From positions 62,001 to 126,000 of the IMG/VR virus record IMGVR_UViG_3300021068_000001: a DNA stretch of 64,000 nucleotides; one strand, written 5' to 3'. The notes under the pieces were generated by a model. It was not told where the DNA came from. It saw only the letters and a program-made list of their open reading frames with translations, and made no database searches. Shown here one piece after another: positions 3,519 to 13,935 of this stretch (position 1 is the first letter of the stretch; every line of letters starts with the position of its first letter). The position numbers and the translations under genes were made by a program. This DNA comes from a virus.

Positions 3519-3832
3519 TGCCAACATACACATTTAAAAATAAGAAGACAGGTAAAGTATTTACTGATATGATGAGCATTGCTGATAAGGAAGAATACTT
3601 GTCTAAAAATAAACACATTACACAAGAAATAACAAAGCTTAATATTGTTGCTGGGGTTAGTGGTCAAAGTTATAGAAGCGATTCAGGTTGGAAAGAAACA
3701 CTATCAAAGGTTGCAGAAGCACACCCATTGAGCCCATTAGCAGGAGAAATGGGTACACGGTCAACAAAACAAATCAAAACACAACAAGTTATGAAAAAGC
3801 ATAAGGCTAGGCAAAGTGCAAAAACTAAATAA
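3518..3832 (+). CDS. FmdB-like N-terminus protein, 104 aa
   Basis: Opens with MPTYTFKNKKTGK, the start seen in FmdB-type regulatory/zinc-ribbon proteins, but the usual Cys pairs are missing, so no zinc site is expected. The C-terminal third is basic (repeated KKHKARQSAK). Conserved companions of this type are common in T4-like marine phages; function unknown. Confidence 0.6.
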   Translation: MPTYTFKNKKTGKVFTDMMSIADKEEYLSKNKHITQEITKLNIVAGVSGQSYRSDSGWKETLSKVAEAHPLSPLAGEMGTRSTKQIKTQQVMKKHKARQSAKTK

Positions 3833-4256
3833 TAGAGATATAATACAAAGCGAGCAACTGAAACGCAACGGTCGTATACCAGAGTCTAGTAGGTCAATCC
3901 GCTTATTGTATAATCTCATAGGGCAGGAGTTATCCTGCTTAAAACACAAGAGAGTCCTGCCCATAGCTATGGTTGGTCTATTATTGTCGGGTTGTGGTAG
4001 TTTACCAGCGTTTGTTGGTACTAGTGCCAGTACATATGAAACGTACAAAACAATAACATTTACAAAAACAGGAGCCGATATTGCTTTAGCCGCAAATGAT
4101 ATGCCTACCACCAACGATTATGCCCTATCCAAGATAACAGGCTATGATTGTAAGGTTAGTAGAGTATTAGATGAAGGCTTAGAAGCAGTATGTCAAAGCA
4201 TAAAAGTACACGCACCAGACGGCACCACAATTAACAAAAACAAGGAGAAAAAATAA
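3816..4256 (+). CDS. putative lipoprotein, start uncertain
   Basis: The credible part is a short basic stretch (KHKR) followed by a hydrophobic run and a lipobox LLSGC (C60 counted from the GTG at 3816), then about 85 residues of exported-type sequence. Any start giving a normal signal peptide lies near 3906-3970, where no ATG with a Shine-Dalgarno is present: TTG at 3906 is possible, and ATG at 3969 is very close to the lipobox. The segment before it (3835-3965) folds into alternative hairpins and may be non-coding. A GGAG precedes the next gene. Confidence 0.5.
   Translation: MQKLNNRDIIQSEQLKRNGRIPESSRSIRLLYNLIGQELSCLKHKRVLPIAMVGLLLSGCGSLPAFVGTSASTYETYKTITFTKTGADIALAANDMPTTNDYALSKITGYDCKVSRVLDEGLEAVCQSIKVHAPDGTTINKNKEKK
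3921..3962 (+). promoter_or_regulatory. two mutually exclusive RNA hairpins
   Basis: GCAGGA (3923-3928), loop GTTA, TCCTGC (3933-3938) forms one perfect hairpin. GGGCAGGA (3921-3928) can instead pair with TCCTGCCC (3955-3962). Both use the AGGA of a Shine-Dalgarno-like AGGAG (3925-3929) just before the lipoprotein coding part, so pairing would mask it. This is structure seen in sequence; a regulatory role is inference. Confidence 0.4.
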
Positions 4257-5355: not shown

Positions 5356-5384
5356 TTGACACGCTTGAAATAGTGTGATATAAT
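5356..5384 (+). promoter_or_regulatory. consensus sigma70 promoter
   Basis: TTGACA at 5356-5361, a 17-base spacer, and TATAAT at 5379-5384: an exact match to the bacterial vegetative consensus. It reads into the nuclease gene at 5413, which has GGAAGG ahead of its ATG. Presumably an early promoter served by unmodified host polymerase. Confidence 0.85.
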
Positions 5385-5412: not shown

Positions 5413-6123
5413 ATGGCTTTTAATTATATAAAACTGAATGAAGATGTATTGCCTAAATCTTTAGGTGTGAAAGGTAAGAACCGAGATGGTGTAAGATATT
5501 ATACTATTGACGGTGTTAATATGCCTTCCGTTACCTCAATATTAGGACAATTACCCGAAAAGAAAAAAATATTAGACGCATGGAGAACAGCTGTTGGTGA
5601 GAAGATGGCTAAATATATTTCTGTGACGGCTACAACAAGGGGTAAAACTACCCACACTCTCATAGAAAACCATTTAAGAAACGAAGATAAAAAATCTAAC
5701 GGCATAACTGCTGTGACACCATTAGGTCTTTTTAGAATTATGAGACCTTATCTTGCTAGACTAGATAACATACATTGTTTAGAAGAATACCTATATTCAA
5801 AAGAAATAGGTGTAGCAGGTCAGGTAGATTGTATTGCAGAATATAAAGGTAAGTTATCTGTAGTTGATTTTAAAACTTCTACAAAGAGAAGGGACGCAGA
5901 TTACAATTACGGTAACTTCTTACAGACTTCAGCATATGCTAAAATGTTTGAAGAATTATTTCCCGATAAGAAAATAGAACAAACTGTTATTTTAGCTGCT
6001 TGTGAAGACGGATTTGTACAAGAGTGGATACACGGAGTAGATAAGGTAAAAGAACACCAAGAGTTGTTTTATAAACACGCAAAAGATTTTTTAGATAGTC
6101 ATTCCTTCAATTCTACCTATTGA
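5413..6123 (+). CDS. PD-(D/E)XK exonuclease (MGME1/Cas4-like)
   Basis: A nuclease of the PD-(D/E)XK superfamily, related to phage exonucleases annotated like mitochondrial genome maintenance exonuclease 1. The active-site pattern is visible: H81 in TTHTLIENH, D139 in GQVDC, and D152-F-K154 followed by TS. Length (236) is normal. It probably processes DNA ends in recombination or host DNA breakdown. It has its own early consensus promoter, which fits early DNA metabolism. Confidence 0.8.
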   Translation: MAFNYIKLNEDVLPKSLGVKGKNRDGVRYYTIDGVNMPSVTSILGQLPEKKKILDAWRTAVGEKMAKYISVTATTRGKTTHTLIENHLRNEDKKSNGITAVTPLGLFRIMRPYLARLDNIHCLEEYLYSKEIGVAGQVDCIAEYKGKLSVVDFKTSTKRRDADYNYGNFLQTSAYAKMFEELFPDKKIEQTVILAACEDGFVQEWIHGVDKVKEHQELFYKHAKDFLDSHSFNSTY

Positions 6124-6203: not shown

Positions 6204-6647
6204 ATGAAGAAATTTCTAGCTTCTATATTAATGTCAGTTTTATTAATATTTGTTGTAATGCAATTTGCGAATGCTGAAGAACCAAAACTACTTGATGAAG
6301 AACCAAAGATAAAGAGAGAATCACCTGAAGTAACGCCATATGAAGAAGGCAGACTTTATTGGATGCAAATGCCAGTTGTTTGTGGTACTACTAAAACAGT
6401 AAAAGATTATATTGATGAACATAAATTTATATTAGTTTATGTTGGTGTTGGTAAACAAGGTGGTAAAGATACTGGCGAACCAGTTTACTTGATAAGTGAA
6501 TATGTAACGCAAGATATGAAACAATCTTTGTCAGTAACAACAACATTGACATTAACAGAATCGTGTATAATGTTAAGAGGTTTTGATTTACAGTTTAGAA
6601 AATCACCTTTAACAAAGGGGACTTCAATATTGGAGCTCCAAACTTGA
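6204..6647 (+). CDS. secreted hypothetical protein
   Basis: Clear signal peptide: MKK, a hydrophobic core, and the cleavage motif FANA-EE at about residue 24. The mature 120 residues include two Cys (VVCGTTK and ESCIM) that could form a disulfide in the periplasm. AGAGG lies 5-9 bases before the ATG. Family not recognised. The 3' end lies against the tmRNA acceptor piece. Confidence 0.65.
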   Translation: MKKFLASILMSVLLIFVVMQFANAEEPKLLDEEPKIKRESPEVTPYEEGRLYWMQMPVVCGTTKTVKDYIDEHKFILVYVGVGKQGGKDTGEPVYLISEYVTQDMKQSLSVTTTLTLTESCIMLRGFDLQFRKSPLTKGTSILELQT

Positions 6648-6654
6648 AATTTGA

Positions 6655-6889
6655 CGTTGAAGAATAGACAATAACTAGTGAGGACGTGGGTGCGATTCCC
6701 ACCACCTCCACCAATTCAAAACACATTATAGTGTGCTTTAAGGGGGTGAGTAGATTCGACTGCTACTAAAACTATTTGGAGTTAAATCGCTGACAGCGTA
6801 CTGTTAAAACTATAAACGACAATCACATAGATTATCGTATGGCTGCTTAGGCAGTCGGGGTTTGCCTGTACCTTGCAACAGAAACAGGC
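6655..6889 (+). ncRNA. ssrA: circularly permuted two-piece tmRNA
   Basis: The acceptor piece comes first: T-stem GTGGG (6686-6690), loop TGCGATT, CCCAC (6698-6702), then acceptor strand CACCTCC (6703-6709), A and CCA (6711-6713). A 28-base linker (6714-6741) with an ACAC/GTGT hairpin follows. The coding piece starts GGGGGTG (6742-6748), which pairs over all seven positions with the acceptor strand. The third pair is G-U, the alanine identity element. AGATTCGACT matches the tmRNA D-region, and CTATT (6772-6776) can pair with AATAG (6663-6667) as helix P2. A tag frame from about 6812 ends at TAG 6848-6850. GCCTGT/ACAGGC closes the 3' end. Outer ends are estimates. Confidence 0.9.
6812..6850 (+). 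other. tmRNA tag reading frame
   Basis: Aligning AAACGAC with the same stretch of E. coli tmRNA places the resume codon at ATA (6812-6814). The frame reads INDNHIDYRMAA then TAG. It keeps the ND core and the hydrophobic-Ala-Ala end that ClpXP-type proteases recognise. An ATA first codon instead of the usual GCN is odd. The first residue of the tag would be the alanine carried by the tmRNA itself. Confidence 0.7.
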
Positions 6890-6917
6890 TTGACATTTTA
6901 CGCTAATATGATATAAT
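6890..6917 (+). promoter_or_regulatory. sigma70 promoter
   Basis: TTGACA (6890-6895), 16-base spacer, TATAAT (6912-6917), immediately after the tmRNA coding piece. It drives the gene at 6942 and, through overlaps, the gp33-gp59 operon. Both hexamers are exact consensus. Confidence 0.75.
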
Positions 6918-6941: not shown

Positions 6942-7169
6942 ATGAGTACATTTATGAATGATGATGAACAAGACCGAGCAAATGCAGCTACCTATGAAGA
7001 CGAGGTGACTTCCAGAAGAACGGTTACTATCCCATTAAGAGAATACGACAAATTAAAAGAAGAACAACATTTTATCAAAGACAAATCATTGATTGCTGTT
7101 ATTGATAAGATTGAAGAATTAGTTAGAGCATTAAGAAAGCACATAGTTAGAACTAATGCTAATGAATAG
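6942..7169 (+). CDS. hypothetical protein, 75 aa
   Basis: First gene of the gp33/gp59 operon, preceded by AAGAGG. The N-terminus is acidic, then a REYDKLKEE...VIDKIEELVRALRKH helical region suggests a coiled coil. No family recognised. It ends 14 bases inside the longest frame of gp33 and 8 bases past the more likely gp33 start. Confidence 0.6.
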   Translation: MSTFMNDDEQDRANAATYEDEVTSRRTVTIPLREYDKLKEEQHFIKDKSLIAVIDKIEELVRALRKHIVRTNANE

Positions 7170-7377
7170 TAAAAAGTTTGCTCTGATAATAGAAGGTATT
7201 GTCAAAGAAAAAAAAATGTCCTATATGGATGCTGTAGTCAAATATTGTGGAGATAATGATATTGATACAGCGTCTGTAGGACCTTTAGTCAACAAAGTAT
7301 TAAAAGAGAAGATAAAAGAAGAGGCAGAAAACCTAAACTTGGTTGAGAAATCAAGTACAGCAATCTTACCCCTATGA
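7162..7377 (+). CDS. 33: gp33 late transcription co-activator
   Basis: Resembles T4-like gp33, which links the sliding clamp to RNA polymerase carrying the late sigma gp55. It is a short helical protein containing YMDAVVKYCGDNDID, then VNKVLKEKIKEEAENLNL, the conserved C-terminal pattern in marine T4-like phages. The start is either ATG 7156 or 7162; 7162 gives the more typical N-terminus. Its presence agrees with the TATAAATA late promoters found across the window. gp55 and the clamp are outside this window. Confidence 0.75.
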   Translation: MNSKKFALIIEGIVKEKKMSYMDAVVKYCGDNDIDTASVGPLVNKVLKEKIKEEAENLNLVEKSSTAILPL

Positions 7378-9398: not shown

Positions 9399-9406
9399 TA
9401 TAAATA
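9399..9406 (+). promoter_or_regulatory. T4-type late promoter before gp32 (TATAAATA)
   Basis: Exact TATAAATA followed by ATAA, 60 bases upstream of the gp32 ATG, which has its own AAGGAG site. gp32 is needed throughout infection, so this would add late transcription. Confidence 0.5.
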
Positions 9407-10429: not shown

Positions 10430-11065
10430 ATGTTACCAATAAAAATAGACAGACCTAAAGATTACTTTAAAAATAATATCCATAAGATAGTTTCGGATTA
10501 TCATAATAAGATTATGACTAATATTACTGAAACTCAAAATAAAATGGATAGTTTCATCAATGAACACCATTTAGTTTATGAACTTTTTTACGATAAAAAG
10601 GAATTAAAACTAATGGAGAAATATCACAATAGAGCAAGAATATTAAGTACAAACGCAGGACGAATATTTGACACAGCAGTTAAATTTATTATAACAGACG
10701 TTGAAGGTGGTAAAAGTGAATACATTAATAACCCTAACCAACACCCTTCCAGATTTGAAATTGATGTTATCAACCACGATAAAAAAATAGCATATGAAAT
10801 CAAATGGCGTGACGCAGGCACAGATGGCGACCATACAAATAAAGAGTTTAGAAAAGTAGATTTACTTGTTGAACAAGGTTATACACCTATTAGATTAACA
10901 TTTTTTATGCCAGAGCTAGAACGTTCATTAAAATCTCAAACACAAATTATAAACTATTATGGAAAGTATGGTAAAACCTATACACAAGATAAAGCATTTG
11001 AATATATAAATCAAATGGCAGATATAGATTTACTACAAATATTAAAAGATTTTAAAACGTTTTAA
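10430..11065 (+). CDS. ApaLI-like restriction endonuclease
   Basis: Matches my recollection of the ApaLI-type restriction endonuclease family (PD-(D/E)XK; ApaLI itself cuts GTGCAC). The active-site pattern is D112 in FEIDV and E123-I-K125, followed by WRDAGTDGDHTNKE, a very conserved stretch of that family. Also typical is GYTPIRLTFF. There is no methyltransferase next to it, so it is not a standard restriction-modification pair. A role in degrading host or rival DNA, or in mobility, is inference. It converges on gp4 with a 14-base overlap. Confidence 0.65.
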   Translation: MLPIKIDRPKDYFKNNIHKIVSDYHNKIMTNITETQNKMDSFINEHHLVYELFYDKKELKLMEKYHNRARILSTNAGRIFDTAVKFIITDVEGGKSEYINNPNQHPSRFEIDVINHDKKIAYEIKWRDAGTDGDHTNKEFRKVDLLVEQGYTPIRLTFFMPELERSLKSQTQIINYYGKYGKTYTQDKAFEYINQMADIDLLQILKDFKTF

Positions 11066-12099: not shown

Positions 12100-13196
12100 T
12101 GTCAATTATTAGTGTAGGTAAAAGAATAGGTGATATGGATATCAGATTAGGTATCCCACCATCAAAGCCACATTTTGGCGTTTCAGATATCAACAAAAGA
12201 ATATCATACAATAACGTTACATCTAATTACAATTCACAATATAACATATTCAGGTCAGGTATAACATCAGCAGGTGGGTTTGCAAGACCTTCACAATTCC
12301 TTTGTACGATTGATGGACCTCCAGTTAGATTACAACGTGGCATTTCTATTTATCCTGACTTTAATAGTAAAAAACAAGATATCCGTATGGACAAGAGTGC
12401 GGCATTAGCTAATGCAATTAAAAAGAATTTACAATTAAGAATGGACCTATTTTGCTCAAACGTAAGTTTACCATCCAGAACAATTACAGATGATGTAAAC
12501 GAAACATACTATGGTCCTAAAAGAGCTCACGCAAAGAATGTTCAATATGAAGAAGTAACATTAGAGTTTTATACGAGTATAAACTATGACGAAAGATTAT
12601 ATTTTGAGGCATGGCAAAACTGTATAATTGATCCTATTAGCCATAACGTAGGTTACTATGATGATTATGCTGAACCTTGTATGATTACTATAACACCATT
12701 AACAAAAACATTTACAGCAGCCCTAGCTAATTTTCAACCGACTGGCAACCCTACTGAAGATAGACAGCAAATAAGAAAAAGTTTAGGTAATACTTCTGGT
12801 TACTCATCTTATCAAGTGCAAATGTATGAGGTATGGCCTAAAACTATTGCTGCTACACCATTATCATATGATTCTCAAAATGCAATAATTAAAACAAGTG
12901 TTACATTTACATACAGAAACTTTGCTACAACAGCATGGAATTGGATGGCAGATAGAGCCGCACCAATGAATAGAGAAAAGAAAAAAAATAGGCAAGAATA
13001 TAGAAATAACACTACAGCCATACAGGCTAGTTTTTTAGATAATTTACCATTTGGTATTGGTAATGAAATTGGTAGAGTAGGCAGAGAGGTCTATGAAAAA
13101 ATAAAAAGAAATTTGCCTATAGGGCGAGTAACAGGAGGACGAGTATTTCCTAAGGGTTTACCAGATCCTAAAATTATACGAGATATACTATATTAA
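12099..13196 (+). CDS. 54: gp54-like tail tube initiator at the baseplate
   Basis: Overlaps the previous stop by one base. The tube-protein-like domain runs about 60-290. It includes FLCTIDGPP, a LFCSNVSLPSRTI segment resembling gp54, TLEFYTSINYDERLYFEAWQNCIIDP (matching the T4 pattern of a residue stretch ending in WV..V.DP), and the C-terminal TSVTFTYRNF strand. gp54 sits on the baseplate with gp48 and starts tail-tube growth. 365 residues against about 320 in T4; the extra C-terminal tail is basic. Confidence 0.7.
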   Translation: MSIISVGKRIGDMDIRLGIPPSKPHFGVSDINKRISYNNVTSNYNSQYNIFRSGITSAGGFARPSQFLCTIDGPPVRLQRGISIYPDFNSKKQDIRMDKSAALANAIKKNLQLRMDLFCSNVSLPSRTITDDVNETYYGPKRAHAKNVQYEEVTLEFYTSINYDERLYFEAWQNCIIDPISHNVGYYDDYAEPCMITITPLTKTFTAALANFQPTGNPTEDRQQIRKSLGNTSGYSSYQVQMYEVWPKTIAATPLSYDSQNAIIKTSVTFTYRNFATTAWNWMADRAAPMNREKKKNRQEYRNNTTAIQASFLDNLPFGIGNEIGRVGREVYEKIKRNLPIGRVTGGRVFPKGLPDPKIIRDILY

Positions 13197-13215
13197 TATT
13201 TAAAGGAGTGAAACA

Positions 13216-13935
13216 ATGAGTTTACCATTAATGAATACACCAGAATATGAATTGACTTTATCAAGGAATATAAAGGTGAAATTTAGACCGTTTTTAGTAA
13301 AAGAAGAAAAGATTTTACTAATGGCGATAGAGAACAACAACGAAGAGGAGATGATCAATATATTAATTCAAACTGTACAAACTTGTATGGTGACTAAAGA
13401 TATTGATGTTACAAAATTACCAGTTTATGATTTTGAATGGTTATGGTTAAACATAAGGTCAAAATCAATTGGTGAGGTTATAGATTTAAAACTGAAATGT
13501 CCAGATGATGAAACACAAGTGGTTGATTATAATTTTAACATTGACCAAGTTAAACCAGATTTTAATAAAGAAGTGGAAACTAATATAAAGTTTTCAGAAA
13601 ATTATGGTGTAATTATGAAAGTGCCAACTGTTAAAGAAGTAGCAAATAAGAAAACCATAATGGATTTAACAGTTAATTTGATGAAGGAGTGTATTGCACA
13701 GATTTATAACGGAGAGGAGATATTTGAAGTTAAGGATATTGAACCAAAGGAACTAGACGAATTTATAGATAATTTGACAATGCCTCAATTTAAAAAGATA
13801 AGAGCATATTTTGAGGAGTTGCCAATCATATCTCATACAATTAAGTATAAGAATCCTAAATCTGGTGCTGAACACGAAATGTTGTTACAAGGTGCGGCTG
13901 ATTTTTTTCAGTTACCCTCTTACACGAAAGCCTAG
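13216..13935 (+). CDS. 26: gp26 baseplate hub assembly protein
   Basis: T4_baseplate family (gp26). It starts MSLPLMNTPEYELTLSR then KVKFRPFLVKEEKILLMA, the typical opening, and has the DFEWLWLNIRSKSIGE block. 239 residues. AAGGAG precedes the ATG. Near its 3' end a run of seven T (13902-13908) is phased as T TTT TTT. A -1 slip there would fuse it to the gp51-like frame (see that entry), as in tail assembly chaperone pairs of other tailed phages. It probably acts with gp51 in hub and tape-measure assembly. Confidence 0.85.
   Translation: MSLPLMNTPEYELTLSRNIKVKFRPFLVKEEKILLMAIENNNEEEMINILIQTVQTCMVTKDIDVTKLPVYDFEWLWLNIRSKSIGEVIDLKLKCPDDETQVVDYNFNIDQVKPDFNKEVETNIKFSENYGVIMKVPTVKEVANKKTIMDLTVNLMKECIAQIYNGEEIFEVKDIEPKELDEFIDNLTMPQFKKIRAYFEELPIISHTIKYKNPKSGAEHEMLLQGAADFFQLPSYTKA
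13902..13908 (+). other. putative -1 frameshift slippery heptamer (U7)
   Basis: In the gp26 frame the codons are GAT TTT TTT CAG, so the heptamer reads U UUU UUU, an exact X XXY YYZ slippery site. A -1 slip enters TCA at 13908 and continues in the gp51 frame for 63 codons. I see only a weak CTCT/AGAG hairpin downstream, so stimulation is unclear. Confidence 0.6.

Follow-up and report, generated by a model that had tools for sequence, protein, structure and literature searches.

The analysed window, a 64-kb stretch of DNA that covers bases 62001–126000 of a 170,818-base virus record (IMGVR_UViG_3300021068_000001), contains a complete gene for a circularly permuted (two-piece) tmRNA at positions 6649–6892 of the plus strand, as recognized by Rfam models and ARAGORN. 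Judged by its sequence, this is quite probably a functional phage ssrA of the alphaproteobacterial permuted type, which would carry out ordinary trans-translation on the machinery of its host. Two-piece phage tmRNAs are already known, including one at the same site in a cultured relative, from the work of Buchholz et al. 2022 and from the phages Mosig and Melnitz. What is new here is a detail, an unusual recoded tag with an aspartate (GAC) resume codon.

A scan of the whole 64-kb window gave full-length matches to the Rfam models tmRNA_permuted (RF04321; 87.7 bits, E = 1.8e-15) and alpha_tmRNA (RF01849; 83.4 bits, E = 4.4e-21), both clearly above the curated cut-offs of 47 and 50 bits, respectively. 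These are the only Rfam matches above cut-off within the 64 kb, and such scores and E-values over this length indicate that the tmRNA is not a chance match. ARAGORN independently identified a permuted tmRNA with the tag DNHIDYRMAA. The bit scores are below those of the SAR11 host genes (125–132 bits). An initial annotation had proposed a phage-encoded permuted tmRNA at 6655–6889; the covariance-model test that it suggested confirms the identification and the locus, but the gene is slightly longer than proposed, with long-range helices beginning at 6649 and the alpha-model alignment extending to 6892. The parts of the gene are as follows.

6649–6713, plus strand: acceptor (3') piece (RF04321 and RF01849 alignments, cofold, covariation; 5' end approximate)
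6649–6655 and 6662–6667, plus strand: long-range strands of the acceptor piece (model alignments, cofold)
6686–6702, plus strand: T-arm of the acceptor piece (model alignments, cofold, covariation)
6703–6709, plus strand: acceptor strand CACCUCC of the acceptor piece (model alignments, cofold, covariation)
6710–6713, plus strand: discriminator A and encoded CCA, the latter at 6711–6713 (sequence, model alignments)
6714–6741, plus strand: intervening sequence of 28 nt with a short hairpin, 6721–6724 with 6731–6734 (sequence)
6742–6892, plus strand: coding (5') piece (Rfam alignment, cofold)
6742–6748, plus strand: acceptor strand GGGGGUG of the coding piece (Rfam alignment, cofold)
near 6772–6777 and 6781–6787, plus strand: long-range strands of the coding piece (Rfam alignment, cofold)
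6818–6850, plus strand: tag reading frame DNHIDYRMAA-stop with resume codon GAC (ARAGORN; preceding ATAAAC)
6864–6889, plus strand: 3' hairpin of the coding piece (Rfam alignment, cofold)

The anatomy agrees with the earlier description of an acceptor piece with T-arm and CCA placed ahead of the coding piece, a hairpin in the linker, and a tag frame that ends in Ala-Ala. The tRNA-like domain comprises a 5-bp T-stem and a 7-bp acceptor stem, in which GGGGGUG pairs perfectly with CACCUCC and which includes G3-U70, the alanine identity pair, as had also been noticed. In two-piece tmRNAs the intervening sequence is excised.

When the two pieces were cofolded, the energy was −60.8 kcal/mol, compared with −52.5 ± 4.3 kcal/mol in shuffled sequences, and 8 of 300 shuffles were as low. 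In the free cofold the pieces pair with each other, forming the acceptor stem and two more inter-piece helices, and the T-arm is present as well. The piece-to-piece binding energy taken alone is unremarkable, with 84 of 300 shuffles equally strong, so that the evidence for pairing comes from the models and from covariation. The latter was assessed on 13 distinct sequences from the window phage, its relatives, and SAR11 hosts, leaving out the relatives L322 and L336, whose T-loop is odd. In the acceptor stem and T-arm all 156 of 156 cells form standard pairs, and both sides have changed in 31 cells, against 9.9 in shuffles. The covariation score is 0.543, compared with 0.129 for shuffles and at most 0.135 for slid versions, and G3-U70 is invariant in all 13 sequences. 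In L322 and L336 (about 3733–3917, plus strand), the alignment and the T-arm comparison show a T-loop of apparently six bases instead of seven.

The proteins of the record are T4-like and include baseplate proteins, gp5 lysozyme, gp33, gp59, and gp32, in line with the phage context assumed initially. For the largest gene, the nearest annotated phages are the Pelagibacter phages HTVC008M and Mosig, the latter with 69% DNA identity along the gene's full length. By these comparisons the record is a T4-like phage related to both, and its host, judged from these relatives, is most likely SAR11. The only tRNA of the record is tRNA-Thr(UGU). Just downstream of gp32, an ApaLI-like restriction endonuclease domain is found at 10430–11065 on the plus strand (PF09499, E = 5.1e-29). 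The gene order around the tmRNA is PD-(D/E)XK nuclease, 147-residue hypothetical protein, tmRNA, 75-residue ORF, gp33, and gp59, with the following elements.

5356–5384, plus strand: sigma-70-type promoter, TTGACA-17 nt-TATAAT with TG before the second hexamer (12/12 consensus)
5413–6123, plus strand: PD-(D/E)XK nuclease (PF12705, E = 1.1e-5; phrog_298 exonuclease, E = 2.3e-53)
6204–6647, plus strand: hypothetical 147-residue protein, immediate upstream neighbour (conserved in 71 of 80 related contigs)
6890–6917, plus strand: sigma-70-type promoter abutting the tmRNA 3' hairpin (12/12 consensus; also in the close relative L294)
6942–7169, plus strand: 75-residue ORF between tmRNA and gp33 (conserved in 53 of 80 related contigs)
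7156–7377, plus strand: gp33-like late-transcription coactivator, conserved downstream neighbour (PF16805, E = 9.5e-23)

The nuclease is a conserved upstream neighbour, and the order matches that in Mosig and Melnitz. Neither the 147-residue protein nor the 75-residue ORF has a family match in Pfam or PHROG; the ORF is retained also in contigs that lack the tmRNA. The first promoter lies upstream of the unit formed by the nuclease, the hypothetical gene, and the tmRNA, and the second reads into the 75-residue ORF, gp33, and gp59. Perfect sites of this type occur three times in the 64-kb window, where 0.18 would be expected by chance. The T4-type late motif is overall no commoner than chance, and its nearest copy, TATAAATA at 9399, is downstream of the tmRNA. 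The consensus promoter upstream, together with the lack of a nearby T4 late promoter, suggests that the tmRNA is likely transcribed early.

A DNA search of a phage collection with the 500-bp tmRNA region gave no match, even in distant mode, and relatives were therefore sought through the neighbouring gp33. This yielded 80 IMG/VR contigs with a close gp33, in which tmRNAs were found by profile. A tmRNA lies between the same neighbours in 59 of the 80 contigs, although these counts do not represent independent events, as many contigs are near copies. In 18 contigs with an intact neighbourhood the tmRNA was undetected, and five of these were negative with Rfam as well, which indicates that the gene is dispensable in some lineages. 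A quick tree, to be taken as a guide only because the sequence is short, places the phage tmRNAs of the gp33 locus and the SAR11 tmRNAs on opposite sides of a branch, each with a support of 99, and tmRNAs of other viral contigs are interspersed.

Cultured phages have similar genes. The annotated tmRNA of Mosig (MT647606, Mosig_00148), a phage that infects SAR11, is permuted, follows the nuclease and a hypothetical gene and precedes gp33 in the same order, and has the same acceptor stem, GGGGGUG with CACCUCC. Its tag GEDNFALAA, GGC resume codon, and 44-nt linker differ from those of the window. In the Mosig genome (L125), a manA RNA motif (RF01745, 64 bits) that is absent from the record's annotation occurs at 13165–13372 on the minus strand, between a rubrerythrin gene and a hypothetical gene. 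The Methylophilales/OM43 phage Melnitz (MZ577097) likewise has an annotated tmRNA between the nuclease and gp33, published as a two-piece ssrA of the alphaproteobacterial kind that precedes the late-transcription coactivator (PMC9004378). It differs from the window in its 142-nt linker, its tag ANDNYVPVDYALAA, and a glutamine riboswitch directly after the tmRNA, which was sought in the window and not found. HTVC008M (KC465899) contains an unannotated permuted tmRNA near gp33 (7162–7371 of contig L127, about 145161–145370 of the record; RF04321, 90.6 bits; RF01849, 83.8 bits) and, unlike the window, has the tag ANFNEYALAA. The ssrA of SAR11 hosts, when compared as the initial annotation had proposed, is also permuted, with the same acceptor stem, T-stem, and G3-U70, but it belongs to a separate clade in the quick tree and has a linker of 11–12 nt.

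The tag of the SAR11 hosts is ANESYALAA in 9 of 10 genomes and ANDKFALAA in the other. Several phage lineages encode exactly ANESYALAA with codons that differ synonymously from those of the hosts, which indicates selection on the tag peptide. All phage tags read at the gp33 locus end in [L/M/I]AA followed by a stop, and MAA replaces LAA in many phages of the group. The window lineage recodes the SAR11 tag to D-N-...-YRMAA. When host and phage sequences are aligned, the GAC of the phage falls at the position of the host resume codon, GCU, and follows a conserved ATAAAC/T block; the ATAAAC before GAC comprises the same bases that precede the GCA resume codon of relatives. Among 107 tags, the resume codon is GCA in 55, GCT in 42, GGC in 5, GCC in 3, and GAC in 2; GAC, encoding aspartate, is restricted to the window and L294. 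The tmRNA of L294 is 95% identical to that of the window over 218 columns, and its tag DNESYRMAA is intermediate between ANESYALAA and the window tag. A six-base deletion relative to Melnitz at the start of the tag was considered and rejected, as the alignment with SAR11 and L294 shows an in-register substitution instead. An upstream AUA or AAC was likewise discarded as resume codon, because the conserved block ends immediately before GAC.

No SmpB (PF01668) was matched in the 170.8-kb record, which may be incomplete, and on the record searched the phage does not have a self-sufficient tmRNA-SmpB system. Ten SAR11 genomes with a permuted tmRNA served as the host sample; SmpB is present in eight and ClpX is above cut-off in nine, and as these genomes are drafts, single absences mean little. 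Since the phage lacks a detectable SmpB and most SAR11 genomes have both SmpB and ClpX, the phage tmRNA most likely uses host machinery.

The gene is real and looks functional from its anatomy, which is evident in the sequence; its processing, charging, tagging, and benefit we infer from tmRNA biology. The acceptor piece, the 28-nt spacer, and the coding piece would lie on a single transcript, in which the tRNA-like domain, the tag frame, and the 3' hairpin are all intact. Host tRNA-processing enzymes would cleave it into two paired RNAs, and host AlaRS would charge the tmRNA by virtue of G3-U70. Delivered by host SmpB and EF-Tu, it would let a ribosome stalled on broken mRNA move to the GAC resume codon, append Ala-DNHIDYRMAA, terminate, and be released, after which the tagged fragment would pass to host ClpXP. 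The phage might thus benefit from added capacity for rescue, and from the recycling of ribosomes and amino acids, at a time when host (and phage) mRNA is being broken down. Both functions proposed by the initial annotation, ribosome rescue amid mRNA breakdown and the addition of the phage's own tag, are plausible.

The altered tag could itself be the main benefit of a working trans-translation system. With D at the start and R-M for A-L near the end, it would change the speed or the protease of destruction and thereby protect phage fragments or single out those of the host, so that the recoded tag would act as a virus-specific degradation code on host ribosomes. If so, proteins tagged during infection would meet another fate than host-tagged ones. 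The departure from the SAR11 consensus, the intermediate tag of L294, the confinement of GAC to this lineage, and the frequent MAA in the group all favour such a role. We nevertheless consider it unlikely, because other phages of the group keep the exact host tag, which shows that the group does not generally require an altered one, and the change from L to M is mild. Evasion of the adaptor SspB was rejected as the cause, as SspB was found in none of the ten SAR11 genomes.

Still less probable is a captured host gene that persists as a passenger with no present function. Its absence from the 18 contigs with intact neighbourhood and the lower bit score of the window relative to host genes would fit a passenger, but pairing has been kept by compensatory changes and the tag has remained intact in a phage clade clearly distinct from that of the SAR11 hosts, which is evidence of long-term constraint. 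It is most improbable that the RNA is a decoy that sequesters host SmpB or blocks the tmRNA of the host and so disables host quality control. A precedent for this exists in tmRNAs reduced to the tRNA-like domain, such as that of mycobacteriophage DS6A (PMC4131195, PMC11915505). The window, however, retains a tag frame, stop codon, and 3' hairpin, which a decoy does not need, and dozens of relatives keep the frame and stop. Selection on the tag peptide and the [L/M/I]AA-stop endings argue that the RNA is neither decoy nor relic, and ordinary trans-translation on host machinery is the preferred reading.

Two-piece tmRNA was reported in Melnitz by Buchholz et al. 2022, who counted 53 unique two-piece tmRNAs among phage genomes, of which 50 came from marine or aquatic samples, and discussed sustaining of the hijacked machinery or tagging of host proteins for amino-acid recycling (PMC9004378). 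The initial annotation had placed permuted tmRNA in alphaproteobacteria and some cyanobacteria, which is correct for those groups, but the range also includes phages (PMC9004378). The tmRNA database holds 79 bacteriophage sequences (PMC11915505), and the main text of a pelagimyophage survey (PMC7029224) has no mention of tmRNA. A non-exhaustive literature search found no earlier description of the recoded D...YRMAA tag or of how widely the gene occurs at the gp33 site among pelagimyophage-like contigs, and no remark that the HTVC008M annotation omits its tmRNA. Phage tmRNAs are seldom annotated, as this omission illustrates. The phages form a natural series, with a tag shared with the host, a mildly changed tag, one recoded lineage, and phages without the gene at this site, so that cultured SAR11 phage systems offer a way to test why phages carry tmRNA.

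Permuted tmRNAs with unusually long tags of about 22–25 residues, such as ANAFKPEVTVPMSVFADQELVAA and ANKKALGFADLTVSMPELRLAA, were also observed in 11 viral contigs (L007, L035, L040, L042, L050, L059, L083, L098, L105, L115, and L122). The gp33 neighbour was not found beside these tmRNAs, and the contigs possibly represent a different phage group.
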